From an uncultured Bacteroidales bacterium (GTDB lineage Bacteria > Bacteroidota > Bacteroidia > Bacteroidales > Bacteroidaceae), in NCBI GenBank assembly GCA_902781515.1, contig CACZJU010000003.1, positions 51,512 to 115,511 of the forward strand: a stretch of DNA of 64,000 nucleotides. Reading direction: 5' to 3'. The translations under genes and the position numbers were made by a program. Below are positions 11,066 through 63,751 of the stretch, in pieces (the stretch's first letter is position 1; each line of letters begins with the position of its first letter). The notes beneath the pieces are model-generated. The model was not told the DNA's origin and did not search any database. It saw only the letters and a program-made list of their open reading frames with translations.

Positions 11066-11097
11066 CAAAGATACGATTAAGTGAGGATAAAAGCAAA
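11066..11097 (-). promoter_or_regulatory. miaB promoter, copy 1 (proximal)
   Basis: On the minus strand: TTTG at 11097-11094, a 20-bp spacer, TATCTTTG at 11073-11066. It is a full consensus match and the copy nearest the miaB start at 11044. Confidence 0.7.
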
Positions 11098-11157
11098 ATA
11101 AAAAGCTCTTCTTTTTTAATTTTGCTTTATCGAGCGTCAGTATCTTAGATCGAAGGT

Positions 11158-11189
11158 CAAAGATACGATTAAGTGAGGATAAAAGCAAA
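11158..11189 (-). promoter_or_regulatory. miaB promoter, copy 2
   Basis: The same geometry as copy 1, 92 bp upstream: TTTG at 11189-11186, 20-bp spacer, TATCTTTG at 11165-11158. Confidence 0.65.
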
Positions 11190-11249
11190 ATAAAAAGCTC
11201 TTCTTTTTTAATTTTGCTTTATCGAGCGTCAGTATCTTAGACCGAAGGT

Positions 11250-11281
11250 CAAAGGTACGATTAAGTAAGCGAAATGCCAAA
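11250..11281 (-). promoter_or_regulatory. miaB promoter, copy 3 (distal, diverged)
   Basis: TTTG at 11281-11278, 20-bp spacer, TACCTTTG at 11257-11250. The flanking sequence differs from copies 1 and 2 but keeps a hairpin (AAATGC and GCATTT arms, 11272-11296) around the -33 box. Confidence 0.6.
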
Positions 11282-27365: not shown

Positions 27366-27400
27366 TATATCTTGGCTTTTGTTATATATACCCTCTAAAA

Positions 27401-27491
27401 TAGGTTAATATTATCTATGCGCATAAGTTAATATTATCTATGGCCATAGGTTAATATTATCTCCGTCGATAGGTTATATAACCCTACGGCA
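27401..27491. repeat. Four-unit tandem array, 23-bp period
   Basis: Units begin at 27401, 27424, 27447 and 27470; the first three read TA(G/A)GTTAATATTATCT. The ends of the units form different perfect palindromes: TATGCGCATA (27416-27425), CTATGGCCATAG (27438-27449) and GGTTATATAACC (27472-27483). The array lies between the rimP promoter and the small ORF that ends the protease operon, and touches the stop of that ORF. Confidence 0.85.
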
Positions 27492-59309: not shown

Positions 59310-60503
59310 ATGAGCGATATAAAGCAATATCAAAGTGCGGTTGACGTCATCAAGACCGCGATACTACAGAGTCAGGCACGAGCAGCAAAAGCTGTCAACC
59401 AAGAACAGTTGGCTCTATATTATGGTATTGGTAGATACGTATCTGCAAACACTCGTAAAAAGAACTGGGGGCAAGGAGCTATCGAAGCTATCAGCAACCA
59501 ATTGAAGCAGGAACTGCCTGGGCTACGCGGATTCTCGGCAAGGAATATCAAGAATATGCGTATATTCTATGAAGGTTGGTGTATGCTCGAACGTCATAAT
59601 TCGGCAGTCGTAACTGCCGAATTTACAGAATTTAACACAAAAACGGCAGATGAGACTAGACATGCAATTGTTAATTCGGCAGTTGCGACTGCCGAATTTG
59701 AAGACGATAGAGAAATTCGCCAATTGCAACTAGCAAACTTGCCCGACTTCCCATTGCGCGAGTTCTTGAGCATCAGCTTCACGCACCACATCGCCATACT
59801 TGCAAAGGCGAAAGCCTACGATGAGCGCGTCTTCTACATGAAATATGCAGATTCCTACAAGCCTACTGTTGAGGATTTGGAGAAAGTCATCAAGCAAGAC
59901 CTCTATCACCATCAGGACAAGATACCCAATAACTTCCTGGCCACCATCCCAGACTACAAGCAGGCATATCGTGCCATCCGCATGTTCAAAGACGAATATC
60001 TCCTCAATTTTATCAATGTAGAGGAACTGGGTATGCACGACGAAGATGTGGACGAGAGCGTGATTGAGAGCAATATCGTTCATAATGTGAAGAACTTCAT
60101 CATGACCTTCGGGCGCGGTTTTGCTTTCTGTGGCAGTCAGGTACACTACGACAAACTGGGGCACGATCACTGGATAGACCTTCTGTTCTTTAATCGCGAC
60201 TTGAACCGTACCGTCGTCTTCGAACTTAAGAACGGCAACTTCAAGGTGGGATATCTAGCACAACTGAGTGCCTATCTGCGAATACTGAACGACGATGACC
60301 GTCGTAGTCATGAAGAAGCCCCCATTGGAATCATACTATGCAGACATGCCGACAAAGAATATGCCGGATATATTATGCAGGACTTCAAGCAACCAATGGG
60401 TATAGCTACCTACAAGACTGCCGATGAAATGGACCCAGAACTCCTGAAGGCCCTGCCTCCAAAGGAAGAACTCCAACGTGTTTTTGAAGAGAGCAGCAAG
60501 TAA
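59310..60503 (+). CDS. YhcG/DUF1016-family PDDEXK nuclease
   Basis: 397 residues. The N-terminal DUF1016 domain (NQEQLALYYGIGRYVSANTR, NQLKQELPGLRGFSARNIKNM) is followed by a C-terminal PDDEXK domain with HYDKLGHDHWIDLLFFN (Asp) and VVFELKNGNFKVGY (ExK). The family is found near restriction-modification and mobile genes and is predicted to cut or bind DNA; its task is not settled. Residues about 97-130 contain a 25-residue repeat beginning NSAV(V/A)TAEF, encoded by two perfect hairpins of 11-bp arms. This segment interrupts the family pattern between the N- and C-terminal domains. First gene of the accessory region. Confidence 0.88.
   Translation: MSDIKQYQSAVDVIKTAILQSQARAAKAVNQEQLALYYGIGRYVSANTRKKNWGQGAIEAISNQLKQELPGLRGFSARNIKNMRIFYEGWCMLERHNSAVVTAEFTEFNTKTADETRHAIVNSAVATAEFEDDREIRQLQLANLPDFPLREFLSISFTHHIAILAKAKAYDERVFYMKYADSYKPTVEDLEKVIKQDLYHHQDKIPNNFLATIPDYKQAYRAIRMFKDEYLLNFINVEELGMHDEDVDESVIESNIVHNVKNFIMTFGRGFAFCGSQVHYDKLGHDHWIDLLFFNRDLNRTVVFELKNGNFKVGYLAQLSAYLRILNDDDRRSHEEAPIGIILCRHADKEYAGYIMQDFKQPMGIATYKTADEMDPELLKALPPKEELQRVFEESSK
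59598..59698. repeat. Two identical-arm hairpins inside the YhcG-type gene, 75 bp apart
   Basis: AATTCGGCAGT and ACTGCCGAATT at 59598-59623 (loop CGTA) and again at 59673-59698 (loop TGCG). Starts are 75 bp apart, in frame, giving the NSAV(V/A)TAEF repeat in the protein. Confidence 0.85.
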
Positions 60504-60700
60504 TTGCAACGCGTTCCATAACGACAAGTATCATTATTTATTTAATAATAATGTAAAGCAGGGGTTGCAGGTAAAAAACTGCGACCCCTTTTATTTTTTC
60601 CGATTCCCCTTTCCTATTTAAAAATAAATTCGTAAAATCGTAGCCGTAATAAACAAAAAAACGACAGCCAATGGAATAGTACATTGATTTAAGGACATAT
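60504..60700. other. Spacer after the YhcG-type gene
   Basis: It holds the terminator at 60560-60599 and about 100 bp of AT-rich sequence leading into element copy 1. The minus-strand 73-residue frame across it has no coding character. Nothing else is seen. Confidence 0.5.
60560..60599 (+). terminator. Terminator of the YhcG-type gene
   Basis: An 11-bp stem, AGGGGTTGCAG (60560-60570) and CTGCGACCCCT (60579-60589) with one G-U pair, followed by a T-rich tract. Confidence 0.8.
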
Positions 60701-60703
60701 AGG

Positions 60704-60735
60704 CAGAAGCGTCCGCTTGGGCGCTTCTTTTGTTT
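60704..60735 (+). terminator. Terminator hairpin of element copy 1
   Basis: A 9-bp stem with a GCTT loop, then TTTTGTTTT. Confidence 0.75.
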
Positions 60736-60738
60736 TAA

Positions 60739-60826
60739 TATAGAGACTTTGCGAAACATCTATAGTGAGTTTGGCTATTCAATATAGAGACTTCTGCTAT
60801 TCACTATAGTAACATTTTGGGGCTTT
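60739..60826. repeat. Four-unit tandem array, 22-bp period (copy 1)
   Basis: Each unit begins TATAG(A/T)(G/A)A; starts at 60739, 60761, 60783 and 60805. Confidence 0.85.
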
Positions 60827-60829
60827 TGT

Positions 60830-60860
60830 TTTGCTCGTATTAAATTAATATGTAAATTTG
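60830..60860 (+). promoter_or_regulatory. Promoter of the toxin-antitoxin pair
   Basis: TTTG, 19-bp spacer, TAAATTTG; 27 nt from the -7 box to the antitoxin ATG. It abuts the 22-bp array. Confidence 0.7.
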
Positions 60861-60887
60861 CCATGATAAATTACTAATAACGAAATA

Positions 60888-61124
60888 ATGAGTACTGTTG
60901 CACTAAACAGTTTGTTGGATTATTTAACTGCAGTCCTGACCAAGGACAATAAACAATGGCTTGCCGACCATCTGTATCAACAGGTGCGCAGCGAGAATGC
61001 AGTCACTCCATACACTATGGAAGAAATAGACACTATGCTTCACGAAGCTGAGGAGGACTATGCTGCTGGTCGCTACAAGACTAATGATGAAATGTTTGGT
61101 CATAAACGAGACATCGTGGTATGA
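60888..61124 (+). CDS. Antitoxin of a type II toxin-antitoxin pair
   Basis: 78 residues. The acidic C-terminal half YTMEEIDTMLHEAEEDYAAGRYKTNDEMF has the pattern of antitoxins that precede ParE/RelE toxins in Bacteroidetes (a helix, then an extended segment that wraps the toxin). The N-terminal part (LLDYLTAVLTKDNKQWLADHLYQQ) is helical. The stop overlaps the toxin ATG as ATGA. It is expected to neutralise the toxin and repress its own promoter; the 22-bp array directly upstream might be its operator, which is inference. Confidence 0.75.
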   Translation: MSTVALNSLLDYLTAVLTKDNKQWLADHLYQQVRSENAVTPYTMEEIDTMLHEAEEDYAAGRYKTNDEMFGHKRDIVV

Positions 61125-61432
61125 AAGTAATCTGGCTACATCGAGCAGAAATCGCCTTATACCAGACTGAAGAATACATACAGAATGAATTCGGGACGAA
61201 GGCAAGCGTTAGATTCATGAAAGAAGTTGAGGAAGTTGCATATCTTCTAGAAAGGATGCCAGAACTTGGTCACTACGAACCATTACTCTCAAACTATGTA
61301 CAAGGGTATCGCAGTATAGTCATAAATAAATTAACCAAACTGATATATTATATCAAGGGAAATGATCTCCTAATTGCAACACTATGGGACACGCGTCGCG
61401 AACCCAAGTCGCTCGCAAATAATATCAAATAA
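61121..61432 (+). CDS. ParE/RelE-family toxin
   Basis: 103 residues. The fold is recognisable from VIWLHRAEIALYQTEEYIQNEFG at the N-terminus, FMKEVEEVAYLLERMPELGHYEP, GYRSIVINKLTKLIYYI, and the basic C-terminal LWDTRREPKSL. ParE types poison gyrase and RelE types cut mRNA in the ribosome; residues seen do not settle which, but the lack of a clear RelE catalytic set leans to ParE. Translation is coupled to the antitoxin by a 4-bp overlap. Element copy 2 follows 14 bp after its stop. Confidence 0.85.
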   Translation: MKVIWLHRAEIALYQTEEYIQNEFGTKASVRFMKEVEEVAYLLERMPELGHYEPLLSNYVQGYRSIVINKLTKLIYYIKGNDLLIATLWDTRREPKSLANNIK

Positions 61433-61492
61433 CTAAAAACCCTTTAAAAACCAATTGAACTGAAGAAACAGACAGTAAATTAGACATATAGA

Positions 61493-61526
61493 CAGAAGCG
61501 TCCGCTTGGACGCTTCTGTTTTTTTT
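61493..61526 (+). terminator. Terminator hairpin of element copy 2
   Basis: Stem CAGAAGCGTCC and GGACGCTTCTG around GCTT, 11 bp perfect, then eight T. Confidence 0.85.
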
Positions 61527-61613
61527 ATAGAGACTTTGCGAAACATCTATAGTGAGTTTGGCTCTTCACTATAGTAACTTCTGCTATTCACTATAGTAAC
61601 ATTTTGGGGCTTT
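61526..61613. repeat. Four-unit tandem array, 22-bp period (copy 2)
   Basis: Starts at 61526, 61548, 61570 and 61592; all units begin TATAG, and the last merges into the -33 region of the next promoter. Confidence 0.85.
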
Positions 61614-61616
61614 TGT

Positions 61617-61648
61617 TTTGACTGTATTATATTAAATTAGTATATTTG
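61617..61648 (+). promoter_or_regulatory. Promoter of the DUF4160/DUF2442 pair
   Basis: TTTG, 20-bp spacer, TATATTTG; 19 nt from the -7 box to the ATG at 61668. Confidence 0.7.
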
Positions 61649-61667
61649 CAACAGAATACATATAATT

Positions 61668-61958
61668 ATGCCTAAAATACTATTGTACATAACAGCTAAG
61701 GTTATATGGAATTTTCTGTTCTACAATACGGACTTCCATGAAAGCCGAGCTCATGTACATGTTGGCAAGAAAAGTACAGAGGACTTATGTAAAATATGGC
61801 TTGAGCCAGAAGTGGAAGTTGCAAAGCAGGGTGATTTAACCGATGCCCAGGTTCGTGAGGTCGTCAGAATCACAACTGAATATAAAGATAAGTTGATAAA
61901 GCAATGGAATCTCTTCAAACAGGGTTCTCCAATTCGAATAATTAAAATAAGGAAGTAA
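61668..61958 (+). CDS. DUF4160-domain protein (predicted toxin-antitoxin partner)
   Basis: 96 residues. The DUF4160 pattern is seen in MPKILLYITAKVIWNFLFYN, the HxHV motif in SRAHVHVGKK (the usual HVHV region), and the C-terminal VVRITTEYKDKLIKQWN. Genes of this family are generally paired with a DUF2442 gene and have been predicted to form toxin-antitoxin-like modules; no biochemical role is established that I can state. The second gene starts 1 bp after its stop. Confidence 0.8.
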   Translation: MPKILLYITAKVIWNFLFYNTDFHESRAHVHVGKKSTEDLCKIWLEPEVEVAKQGDLTDAQVREVVRITTEYKDKLIKQWNLFKQGSPIRIIKIRK

Positions 61959-61959
61959 T

Positions 61960-62154
61960 ATGTACAAGACAGAAGGATATTGGAACGTTACACCACGCAT
62001 CAAGTCGCTGTCGTTCCCTAAGAGAGGTAAATTTCAGGTAGACCTGCAAGATGGCCGATCCATAGTCATGCCCATATCTGCTTTCGCAAATTTTGGGCAA
62101 TTATCAAAACTATGCCCACGAAGCACTATAACACTTTTAAACCAATTAAACTGA
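61960..62154 (+). CDS. DUF2442-domain protein, short, 3' end lies in a repeat element
   Basis: 64 residues. The DUF2442 core is visible: GYWNVTPRIKSLSFPKRGKFQVDLQDGRSIVMPISAFANFGQL. Family members usually run to about 75-90 residues. Here the last codons (LLNQLN and stop) are formed by the start of element copy 3, whose equivalent in copy 2 is non-coding. The C-terminus is therefore probably replaced or truncated by the repeat. It pairs with the DUF4160 gene. Confidence 0.7.
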   Translation: MYKTEGYWNVTPRIKSLSFPKRGKFQVDLQDGRSIVMPISAFANFGQLSKLCPRSTITLLNQLN

Positions 62155-62260
62155 AGAAACAGGCAGTAGATTAGACATACAAACAGAAGCGTCCGCTTGG
62201 ACGCTTTTGTTTTTTATATAGAGACTTTGCGAAACATCTATAGTAACATTTTTGGTATGT
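62131..62260 (+). repeat. Cassette-boundary element, copy 3 (shortened)
   Basis: The same leading segment as copy 2 (CAATTAAACTGAAGAAACAGGC), the terminator hairpin at 62184-62210, then only two array units (62217 and 62239), corresponding to units 1 and 4 of the other copies. The promoter part is missing. Confidence 0.85.
62184..62215 (+). terminator. Terminator hairpin of element copy 3
   Basis: CAGAAGCGTCC-GCTT-GGACGCTTTTG, then a T tract. Confidence 0.8.
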
Positions 62261-62452
62261 TGCTTTGTGCGAAGCATTTCATACAGCGAGGGGGCATTTC
62301 GTACAAAGGAAAAATATTTTTTACTTATCATTATTTCATTTCTCAACTTTTCTTTCTAAATTTGTAGCGTCAAGCCCAATGCCGAGAGCCCAGTGGGGAA
62401 GAGAGATTAAAAGGCCTTAAATTGTATAATAATTTTTAATTATTGAAATATT
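62261..62452. other. Spacer upstream of the last complete gene
   Basis: AT-rich, with a short inverted pair around 62264-62281 (TTTGTGCGAAGCATTTC...). It carries the promoter box at 62357-62364. No gene is seen. Confidence 0.5.
62357..62364 (+). promoter_or_regulatory. Promoter -7 box for the 432-residue secreted protein
   Basis: TAAATTTG, 88 nt before the ATG at 62453; no -33 TTTG seen. Confidence 0.45.
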
Positions 62453-63751
62453 ATGAGAAAGAACTTAATATTACAGTTGTTAATTGCTGCATTTATATTA
62501 TTAGCACCGTATAAAGTAATGGCTAGTTTGAAACACGTAGTAGAAGTTAAGCGAATCGGTTTTTGGGCTCCAGACTATCTGACCGTTACAAACAACTACG
62601 ACAATGCATTATGGATTTCTGCTCCAACATCTTTACAGTTTATGTCTGTTATAACTGAAATAAATGGACAGGATACAAAAAACATGGACGAGCGAGAATT
62701 CTATAAGATACTCGATGCTTCAACTTCTGTAGATCTGTCATACATGACGAAGATACGTGGAGAGAATAAGACATTTCACGAAAAACTGAAAAAGGGTGCA
62801 GGGTTAGGAATAGTATGTGGATATTCCATCGATTATAATAGCAGAGATCATTATGAGGCTTATCCAAATTCATATCGTGGCTTTATAGCATCAGATTATG
62901 ATATGGATTTCTTCCAATATTGTACTTACGACTATGCTTTTGGAGATGAAAACGACATAATAGAAAAGAAACAATTATTGCGTCCTCTAACAAAAGAATT
63001 AGATAAAAGAGGCATGAAACGGGTTGATAATAATCCCGATATCTATATATATGTCACACATGACGCCAATAAAAACATTGAAACAGTGTACATGCCGCAA
63101 CAAGTATCATCGACTAATGCTGGAATTAATGGACGAATTATTTACTATGGTAATGTGACGACAGGTTATGCAAATAGTTCTTCTACAACGGTTAACACTG
63201 AAACTGGACAAATAAAGTCATTTACCACAACTGATGTATATTTACAGGTAACATTGCTTGATGCGAAACGTACAAAAGAGGAGATAATCCCTAAAGTCTG
63301 GCAATTTACATACAACAAAAGGTTCGACAAAAATGTAGAATCTGATTTTATGGAAACCTTATTAACAAAAAACGCTCAAAACTATCCATTTGATGGAAGT
63401 ATTTCTAACTATTACGGTTATATACAGAACAGCCCTAGAATATGGTTCACTGGAGCCTATGCGTGGAAGGGAACAACAAGTGCAGATGTAAACACCCCAA
63501 TTAGTGATGTCAACCCAGGAGGATGGGCAGATCAATTAGGTGTAAAGAAGGGCGATGAAGTTTGGGTATACTACACTTATACTTATTCTCGAGGTAAGGG
63601 TCGCTTTTATCCTATAACTTATGATTATTTGGAAACTATATTTGAGGATAGAGGTGTAAAAATAGGAAAAAAGAAAATTAAGGATGTAAGTCGACTTCCT
63701 CGAACTAATGATTACAAATTTATATATGAAGATGATGCCCATAAACTATAA
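62453..63751 (+). CDS. Secreted protein with DUF4136-like core and PDZ-like segments
   Basis: 432 residues with a signal peptide (LILQLLIAAFILLAPYKVMA). A PDZ-like segment (residues about 60-105: SVITEINGQDTKNMDEREFYKI) is followed by a block like DUF4136 (residues about 175-310: RGMKRVDNNPDIYIYVTHD, VTLLDAKRTKEEIIPKVWQF). A second PDZ-like segment (NPGGWADQLGVKKGDEVWVYY) lies near the end. No catalytic residues were recognised. Base composition is more AT-rich than that of the housekeeping genes. Function unknown; probably periplasmic, or a lipoprotein-like relative without the lipobox. Confidence 0.55.
   Translation: MRKNLILQLLIAAFILLAPYKVMASLKHVVEVKRIGFWAPDYLTVTNNYDNALWISAPTSLQFMSVITEINGQDTKNMDEREFYKILDASTSVDLSYMTKIRGENKTFHEKLKKGAGLGIVCGYSIDYNSRDHYEAYPNSYRGFIASDYDMDFFQYCTYDYAFGDENDIIEKKQLLRPLTKELDKRGMKRVDNNPDIYIYVTHDANKNIETVYMPQQVSSTNAGINGRIIYYGNVTTGYANSSSTTVNTETGQIKSFTTTDVYLQVTLLDAKRTKEEIIPKVWQFTYNKRFDKNVESDFMETLLTKNAQNYPFDGSISNYYGYIQNSPRIWFTGAYAWKGTTSADVNTPISDVNPGGWADQLGVKKGDEVWVYYTYTYSRGKGRFYPITYDYLETIFEDRGVKIGKKKIKDVSRLPRTNDYKFIYEDDAHKL

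Follow-up and report, generated by a model that had tools for sequence, protein, structure and literature searches.

Toxin-antitoxin operons as candidate cassettes between repeated borders that open with the 5′ part of a structured leader RNA in a member of the Bacteroidaceae

Toxin-antitoxin (TA) and defence genes are recognised as mobile, but to our knowledge it is largely unexplained how small operons carrying neither a transposase nor an integrase become interchangeable. This question is raised by a 64,000-nucleotide stretch from an uncultured Bacteroidales bacterium of the Bacteroidaceae (assembly GCA_902781515.1, contig CACZJU010000003.1; hereafter the window, G000:C3:51512-115511 in our numbering of genomes and contigs), which belongs to a genome of 2.46 Mb that is 86% complete. 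An earlier note on this DNA had described two unrelated gene pairs separated and flanked by three copies of one composite element, and had proposed that pairs could be swapped there. Repeat search and gene calls confirmed that three copies of such a border, all within 60.69-62.37 kb, separate a ParE-type pair from a DUF4160 pair. From the results below we lean towards the view that TA operons are shuffled as cassettes by recombination at repeated borders, and the cassette idea, partly supported, stands better than at first reading but for another part of the element, a short tag lying 3′ of TA and defence-type genes.

Sequence reading and repeat search gave the same order in each border copy: the tag, a terminator hairpin, CTATAG palindromes at a 22-bp period, and a promoter-like module. 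The hairpin has the form GAAGCGTCC-GCTT-GGACGCTTC, with one arm variable, followed by a run of T, and in all three copies folding predicts a strong terminator (−16.6, −22.9, and −20.7 kcal/mol, with z from −3.6 to −7.3 relative to shuffled sequences). The last module, which is degenerate in copy 3 (5 mismatches), presumably acts as a promoter, judged against the Bacteroidetes consensus. These features support the packaging of each pair with a promoter in front and a terminator behind. The matches reported between copies were also confirmed: copies 2 and 3 have 106 bp in common at 93% identity, beginning 5′ of the hairpin, and copies 1 and 2 have 116 bp in common at 91%, spanning array and promoter. 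The pre-hairpin part of the former, described in the earlier note as a further 45 bp, is indeed shared, but it proved to be the tag, the conserved and cassette-linked part of the border. The copy 3 hairpin and the stretch that follows it (62216-62364) match a stretch on contig C14 of the same genome at 92% identity over 182 bp.

The border recurs throughout the genome. A 201-base border query had at least 14 matches (13 of 37 candidates scored) and a second query had 41, at E values as high as 10. For tags and leaders the whole-genome totals are minimum values, since in several searches scoring was confined to between 3 and 13 leading candidates per genome. Full hairpins were found at 12 places (three on C3, two each on C2, C5, and C15, and one each on C7, C14, and C27), 11 of them within two mismatches and one (C5:17965) at three, and C7:93.88 kb has the left half only. 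The full tag was found at nine sites (E ≤ 5e-16): the hairpin accompanies it at eight, and the half hairpin does so at C7:93.88 kb. At all nine, a TA or candidate defence gene, assigned by Pfam, similarity, or PADLOC, directly precedes the tag: ParE, a DUF2442-type gene (in the window and on C7), HEPN, HepT, PIN_3, a DUF2442-like gene (51% identity to a C21 gene over 55 amino acids, without Pfam match), RhuM, which matches candidate phage-defence models, and an aspartyl protease, which does so weakly. Since the border stands at other loci beside different TA or defence-type genes, the possibility that the element exists only at this locus did not hold. The copies have mosaic ends, pairwise homology stopping at differing module joints; the two C15 sites have a 128-bp match (94%) that runs from the tag through the hairpin into another following stretch.

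The best evidence of exchange or copying at the borders is the DUF4160 cassette of the window, which recurs on C7 between different genes. The C3 and C7 cassettes are near-identical from the first array unit to the gene start, with different hairpins upstream, and at the 3′ end the match covers the tag and reaches as far as the hairpin loop (GCTT), at which point C7 enters a leader RNA (described below). Both copies of the DUF4160/DUF2442 pair are incomplete, each in another part of the pair. With its junctions in border or leader sequence, this cassette is probably a product of border recombination, as the suggestion of exchange at the elements would have it.

The CTATAG array, which had been counted as part of each package, follows the hairpin at 10 of the 12 places but is not a cassette part, because it also adjoins ordinary genes in the genome and was not found after the tag at 11 checked sites in other genomes. 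It is a separate intergenic repeat, incidental to the cassettes, and occurs at about 18 places, 8 of them without this hairpin (the array pattern gave 56 forward matches genome-wide versus 7 for a reversed-pattern control, 2 mismatches being allowed). As a chain of RNA hairpins the array was rejected, its folding being no better than that of shuffled sequences (z −0.98 and −0.79). Six of the hairpin-less arrays (C1 twice, C5, C9, C13, and C28) are preceded by a second palindromic array with a 23-bp period (CATTAGTAATGC), directly 5′ of the CTATAG array. This second array ends in a hairpin, TCTTCCGNCGGAAGA, at C1:175365-175434, C5:143388-143480, C9:49433-49478, and C28:7484-7552, and is without it at C1:90541-90596 and C13:57813-57868. 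Short intergenic CTATAG arrays with a 22-bp period were also seen in about a dozen genus members (e.g., loci L188-L205); the core is constant among genomes, while the flanking half-sites differ yet are largely symmetric (e.g., ATTCCCCTATAGGGGAAT in G005). The intergenic region at about 9650-10000 of L203 (G141:C11) is built of several palindrome arrays in a row, of about 22 bp and with a core that differs from array to array, and positions 27400-27476 of the window hold another array, of 23-bp period, with palindrome-like cores (GGTTAATATTATC; GGTTATATAACC).

Such repeats bring up the alternative that the border itself moves, as a miniature inverted-repeat transposable element (MITE) of the BrickBuilt type inserting between genes while the TA genes stay in place. 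Its species-specific, intergenic occurrence in about a dozen or more copies, the 22-bp array, and the promoter-like module all agree with this. However, terminal inverted repeats, a MITE trait, were not found, the longest perfect ones between chosen ends measuring 8, 5, and 6 bp, and homology ends that vary by copy pair do not describe a single unit with constant ends. Moreover, the tag follows TA or defence-type genes at every full-tag site, and DUF4160 genes are shared along with the borders. The MITE reading fits in part and is weakened by the lack of inverted and fixed ends; we consider it unlikely.

A leader RNA of about 190 nt has the tag as its 5′ end, and the sequence that C7 enters after the joint is also present on C9 and C21. 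This leader was found in at least 27 of 61 genomes searched (own included) and in at least 50 of 80 further genus members. Its single fold has a z of −4.6, and 47 sequences show a covarying structure of 29 base pairs, 16 of which have changes on both sides. All 47 end in a hairpin and a T run, each of the seven terminal-hairpin pairs being standard in at least 43 of them. The leader mostly lies a few dozen bases 5′ of a gene with a signal-peptide-like start (judged by eye), and is likely a transcription attenuator. Rfam gave no match at gathering score (best E of 0.16 in an open search), and no paper describing the tag, the leader, or the TA arrangement was found in the literature, judged by title and abstract start; a survey is said to list thousands of candidate microbiome RNAs (PMC8040213) and could include the leader. 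Elsewhere in the genome, C2:114075-114442 and C22:12366-12744 have promoter, leader, and following stretch in common (86% over 384 bp). A common putative transcript start (GTCAAGCCCAATGCCGAGAGCCCAG) follows the promoter at C5:102.4 kb and at positions 62369-62393 of the window, where it precedes the exported-protein gene.

TA genes also precede the leader itself. In a first set of 47 leaders with at least 300 nt of upstream sequence, a same-strand TA-type gene adjoins 18, in 12 genomes (17 belong to TA families, and one is an aspartyl protease). The Pfam families are DUF2442, DUF4160, NTP_transf_2, HepT, YafQ, YoeB, ParE, and PIN_3; the labels at L206 and L022 rest on similarity or the partner gene, and PD-(D/E)XK genes before two further leaders (L217; L229 by eye) were left out of the count. 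Among 48 control anchors before other genes, the automatic rule gave one TA case, the window's own remnant (labels by eye; of the other 22 control genes on the same strand, 10 were run against Pfam and none gave a TA family). The control loci came from the window and seven genomes picked for arrays, so that their match with the leader set is rough; the difference had a Fisher p = 5e-6 with 18 cases and p = 7e-5 with the 15 found by the automatic rule. A second set of 30 loci, listed from 80 genomes and scored by the longest same-strand open reading frame (ORF) ending within 250 nt, had a TA-type gene before 13 (11 by Pfam, one of them below cut-off, and two by similarity) and defence-type genes before four more: ORF6N (two), PD-(D/E)XK, and aspartyl protease. 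In the interval 20-120 nt 5′ of the leader, a TANNTTTG motif was seen in 0 of 18 TA cases versus 22 of 31 others; the second set had it in 1 of 17 TA or defence-type cases versus 10 of 13 others. Since this −7 motif is scarce before TA-preceded leaders, the simplest reading is that the TA genes lie between promoter and leader.

In other species the tag occurs with a second kind of ending. We inspected 13 short tag matches (21-41 nt of the leader 5′ end) among the matches listed in other genomes. A plain terminator, mostly with GCCTCTCC or GCCTTTCC arms, lies within about 25 nt of the tag at 9 of 13 (three in G134, four in G140, and one each in G065 and G118), and the upstream gene has a TA Pfam match at 9 of 13: RelE (below cut-off), PemK, HEPN, HepT, MNT three times, HipA, and DUF2442. 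Behind the tag stands a second TA pair in G134 (RelE then MNT at L297, PemK then MNT-HepT at L298; downstream by eye), a DUF4160-DUF2442 pair in G065 (L305, by eye), and an exported-type gene at 3 of 4 G140 sites. In these four genomes and our own, a new promoter-like motif precedes the next gene after the shortened leader. As noted above, 11 checked foreign sites have no CTATAG array between tag and next gene (L305 has one, upstream of the tag), and the window is therefore one species' form of a wider pattern. Leaders elsewhere are preceded by genes for relatives of the proteins that our genome encodes before the hairpin: aspartyl protease (82%, G014), MNT (72%, G003), HepT (54%, G008), and PIN (51%, G017). 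In the DNA of the protease pair the coding region aligns, the 5′ region does not, and the 3′ match resumes only at the tag.

These arrangements could also mean that TA and exported-protein genes form one regulated operon, with leader and tag kept by regulatory selection and not by exchange. The scarcity of a separate −7 motif before TA-preceded leaders, the terminal terminator in 47 of 47 leaders, and the exported-type gene still present behind the plain terminator in the window and at most G140 sites would all follow. Nevertheless, the tag is kept in all five genomes that lack the remainder of the leader and have a new promoter-like motif ahead of the next gene, and we regard this explanation as improbable. 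Similarly little credence is given to a dedicated site-specific system in which a recombinase acts on the tag as integrons act on attC. Unrelated cassettes do carry one 3′ tag, the joint falls after GCTTAGATTC in most foreign short sites and at GCTT in our genome, and TA pairs stand in series both here and in G134. Against this, the best score for the integron integrase (TIGR02249) in the genome, at its 86% completeness, was 70.7 bits (cut-off 265), neither attC box (RYYYAAC or GTTRRRY) was found in the three window borders on either strand, and the tag sequence also begins leaders that have no TA gene upstream. The absence of integrase and attC features reported earlier was thereby confirmed, and an integron cassette array was rejected, although one 3′ sequence common to unrelated cassettes is an integron-like trait. 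A simple local origin, by tandem duplication and subsequent replacement of the genes, is suggested by the 93% likeness of copies 2 and 3; it is hardly credible and as sole origin is contradicted by copies on seven contigs beside different genes, with unrelated gene contents.

Shuffling of TA operons at repeated borders, the explanation we prefer, would proceed as follows. The window would hold two TA operons as cassettes, each with a promoter module at its start and a tag of about 50 nt fused to an intrinsic terminator at its end. TA or defence-type operons would repeatedly have been placed directly before the leader of exported-protein genes, without a separate leader −7 motif. In several species, our own included, the rest of the leader would have been replaced by a plain species-specific terminator, behind which a new promoter and another TA pair or other gene could follow. 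Since tag, terminator, and promoter modules are repeated genome-wide, homologous recombination between copies is possible, and it would copy or swap the operon lying between. RecA-type exchange, co-transcription, attenuation, TA activity, and a change in the direction from leader to plain terminator are all presumed in this scheme.

Several observations weigh against it. No strain pair displayed a swap; because no close relative was found, the exchange is something we infer. luxS was present in 119 of 139 genomes, and its neighbourhood, in which empty sites were sought, was not syntenic in any of the 29 relatives whose loci were read. A 91-base tag-hairpin query (up to 3 candidates scored per genome) had strong matches in our genome only. 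Four of the 12 hairpins are without a full tag (C3 copy 1, C5:18k, C7:94.3k, and C14) and none of these directly ends a TA gene. A TA-type gene was absent upstream of 29 of the 47 leaders. The TA labels were assigned manually on the strength of sequence and Pfam, some rows having no Pfam match; three of the 18 cases (L022, L114, and L221) are manual additions that the automatic rule did not pick, and leaders that share a genome are not independent of one another. The −7 motif contrast is somewhat inflated, because the scanned region is partly coding in the TA cases. A leader stands behind only 2 of 30 DUF4160 loci fetched in the genus, and therefore most TA pairs are not tag-linked; at least 8 more DUF4160 loci have a leader by coordinates, among the matches listed. 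The exact hairpin was found in 2 contigs of GTDB 220 (one Bacteroidetes and one Hydrogenedentota metagenome-assembled genome) and in one viral contig, with neither tag nor CTATAG core near it (L187 by reading of the sequence), and plasmids and phages gave no match.

A more far-reaching proposal, held only tentatively, is an integrase-free, genus-wide system of TA and phage-defence cassettes. Operons would be caught between a promoter and the attenuator; the TA promoter would then control the exported protein while the TA pair guards the locus, and arrays would arise by exchange of the attenuator for a plain terminator. One 3′ tag on many unrelated TA families in many species of one genus is a concrete handle, and the tag may make unrelated TA pairs interchangeable. 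TA operons are placed directly before exported-protein genes, joined to them by a structured RNA absent from Rfam; if the transcription link is true, TA autoregulation would set the expression of surface or secreted proteins.

The features of the locus are collected in the table. The YhcG/DUF1016 gene, with which the array had been taken to begin, is the upstream neighbour of border copy 1, has its own terminator, and lies outside both pairs; a promoter-like stretch with no gene behind it (60604-60660), perhaps left by a lost cassette, lies between two terminators. The putative antitoxin has 33% identity over 45 amino acids to a small gene preceding ParE in G020, and the window ParE has 42% identity to that G020 ParE, which precedes a leader. 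The DUF4160 protein is DhiT-like (NCBIfam NF048015) far below cut-off (22.1 vs 100). Its neighbour had been called DUF2442: the C7 copy suggests a partner of this type, but the gene is shortened and a Pfam search of it gave no match, and its last codons overlap the tag of copy 3. For both ParE and DUF4160, a recognised toxin family adjoins a small partner gene, and the pairs are predicted type II TA operons. An NCBIfam search of the exported-protein gene gave no match. Apart from this locus, positions 11066-11266 of the window hold a 92-bp sequence in 2.2 tandem repeats at 98% identity, and C5:19103-20420, downstream of a KilA-N gene, has about 17 repeat units, mostly 77 bp apart, adjoined by Cas2- and Cas1-like ORFs (by eye), probably an array of clustered regularly interspaced short palindromic repeats.

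Table. Features of the cassette locus (positions in the window) and leader copies on other contigs of the same genome.
Feature	Position	Strand	Basis and remarks
YhcG/DUF1016 PD-(D/E)XK protein	59310-60503	+	Pfam; PADLOC match to candidate phage-defence models PDC-S02
Separate intrinsic terminator 3′ of YhcG gene	60560-60600	+	Terminator scoring
Border copy 1, partial tag and hairpin terminator	60692-60727 (hairpin 60706-60727)	+	Repeat search, folding
CTATAG array, copy 1	60738-60809		22-bp period, 4 cores; pattern search
Promoter module, copy 1	60811-60861	+	AACATTTTGGGGCTTTTGTTTTG plus TANNTTTG-type −7; putative promoter
Small protein, putative antitoxin	60888-61124	+	ORF call; Pfam: DUF3783 only, below cut-off
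ParE-type toxin	61121-61432	+	Pfam PF05016, 24.6 bits vs cut-off 23
Full tag, copy 2	61449-61507	+	Homologous to leader RNA 5′ end; takes in hairpin left arm
Hairpin terminator, copy 2	61495-61516	+	Genome pattern search, folding
CTATAG array, copy 2	61525-61596		4 cores; pattern search
Promoter module, copy 2	61598-61650	+	Putative promoter
DUF4160 protein	61668-61958	+	Pfam, 47.4 vs cut-off 23
Shortened DUF2442-type partner	61960-62154	+	Probable identity, from C7 copy (common start and 3′ end)
Full tag, copy 3	62140-62198	+	Homology to tag
Hairpin terminator, copy 3	62186-62207	+	Genome pattern search, folding
Copy 3 array and following stretch	62216-62364		Array 62216-62243, 2 cores only
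Exported-protein gene	62453-63751	+	Signal-peptide-like start judged by eye; downstream of cassettes
Leader copies, own genome	C21:39799-40009 (L078:4800-5010), C7:93717-93905, C9:19555-19753		

Compared with known systems, the gene pairs resemble DhiT-type DUF4160/DUF2442 and ParE type II TA families in that Pfam DUF4160 and ParE genes adjoin small partners; they differ in the low DhiT score and the shortened DUF2442 partner. Like attenuator leaders and riboswitches in general, the leader is a 5′ structured RNA with a terminal intrinsic terminator shortly before the start codon; unlike them, it is without an Rfam family and often has TA genes directly upstream on the same strand. The closest known kinds to the whole arrangement are integron TA cassettes and BrickBuilt-type repeats, and on the features tested it belongs to neither. 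TA cassettes occur in superintegrons, and as in these chromosomal integrons small operons form a series in which every one ends with a shared 3′ sequence; here, by contrast, the cassettes are at scattered loci and what they share at the 3′ side is a leader-RNA start with a terminator. The BrickBuilt MITE of Porphyromonas gingivalis is a species-specific intergenic repeat with a spacerless tandem array of 23 nt, leader and tail flanks, and promoter activity (PMC4596501). The window border is likewise a multicopy intergenic repeat with a tandem array, flanking parts, and a promoter-like module, but its period is 22 bp, and one of its flanking parts goes with TA genes and corresponds to the beginning of a structured leader.

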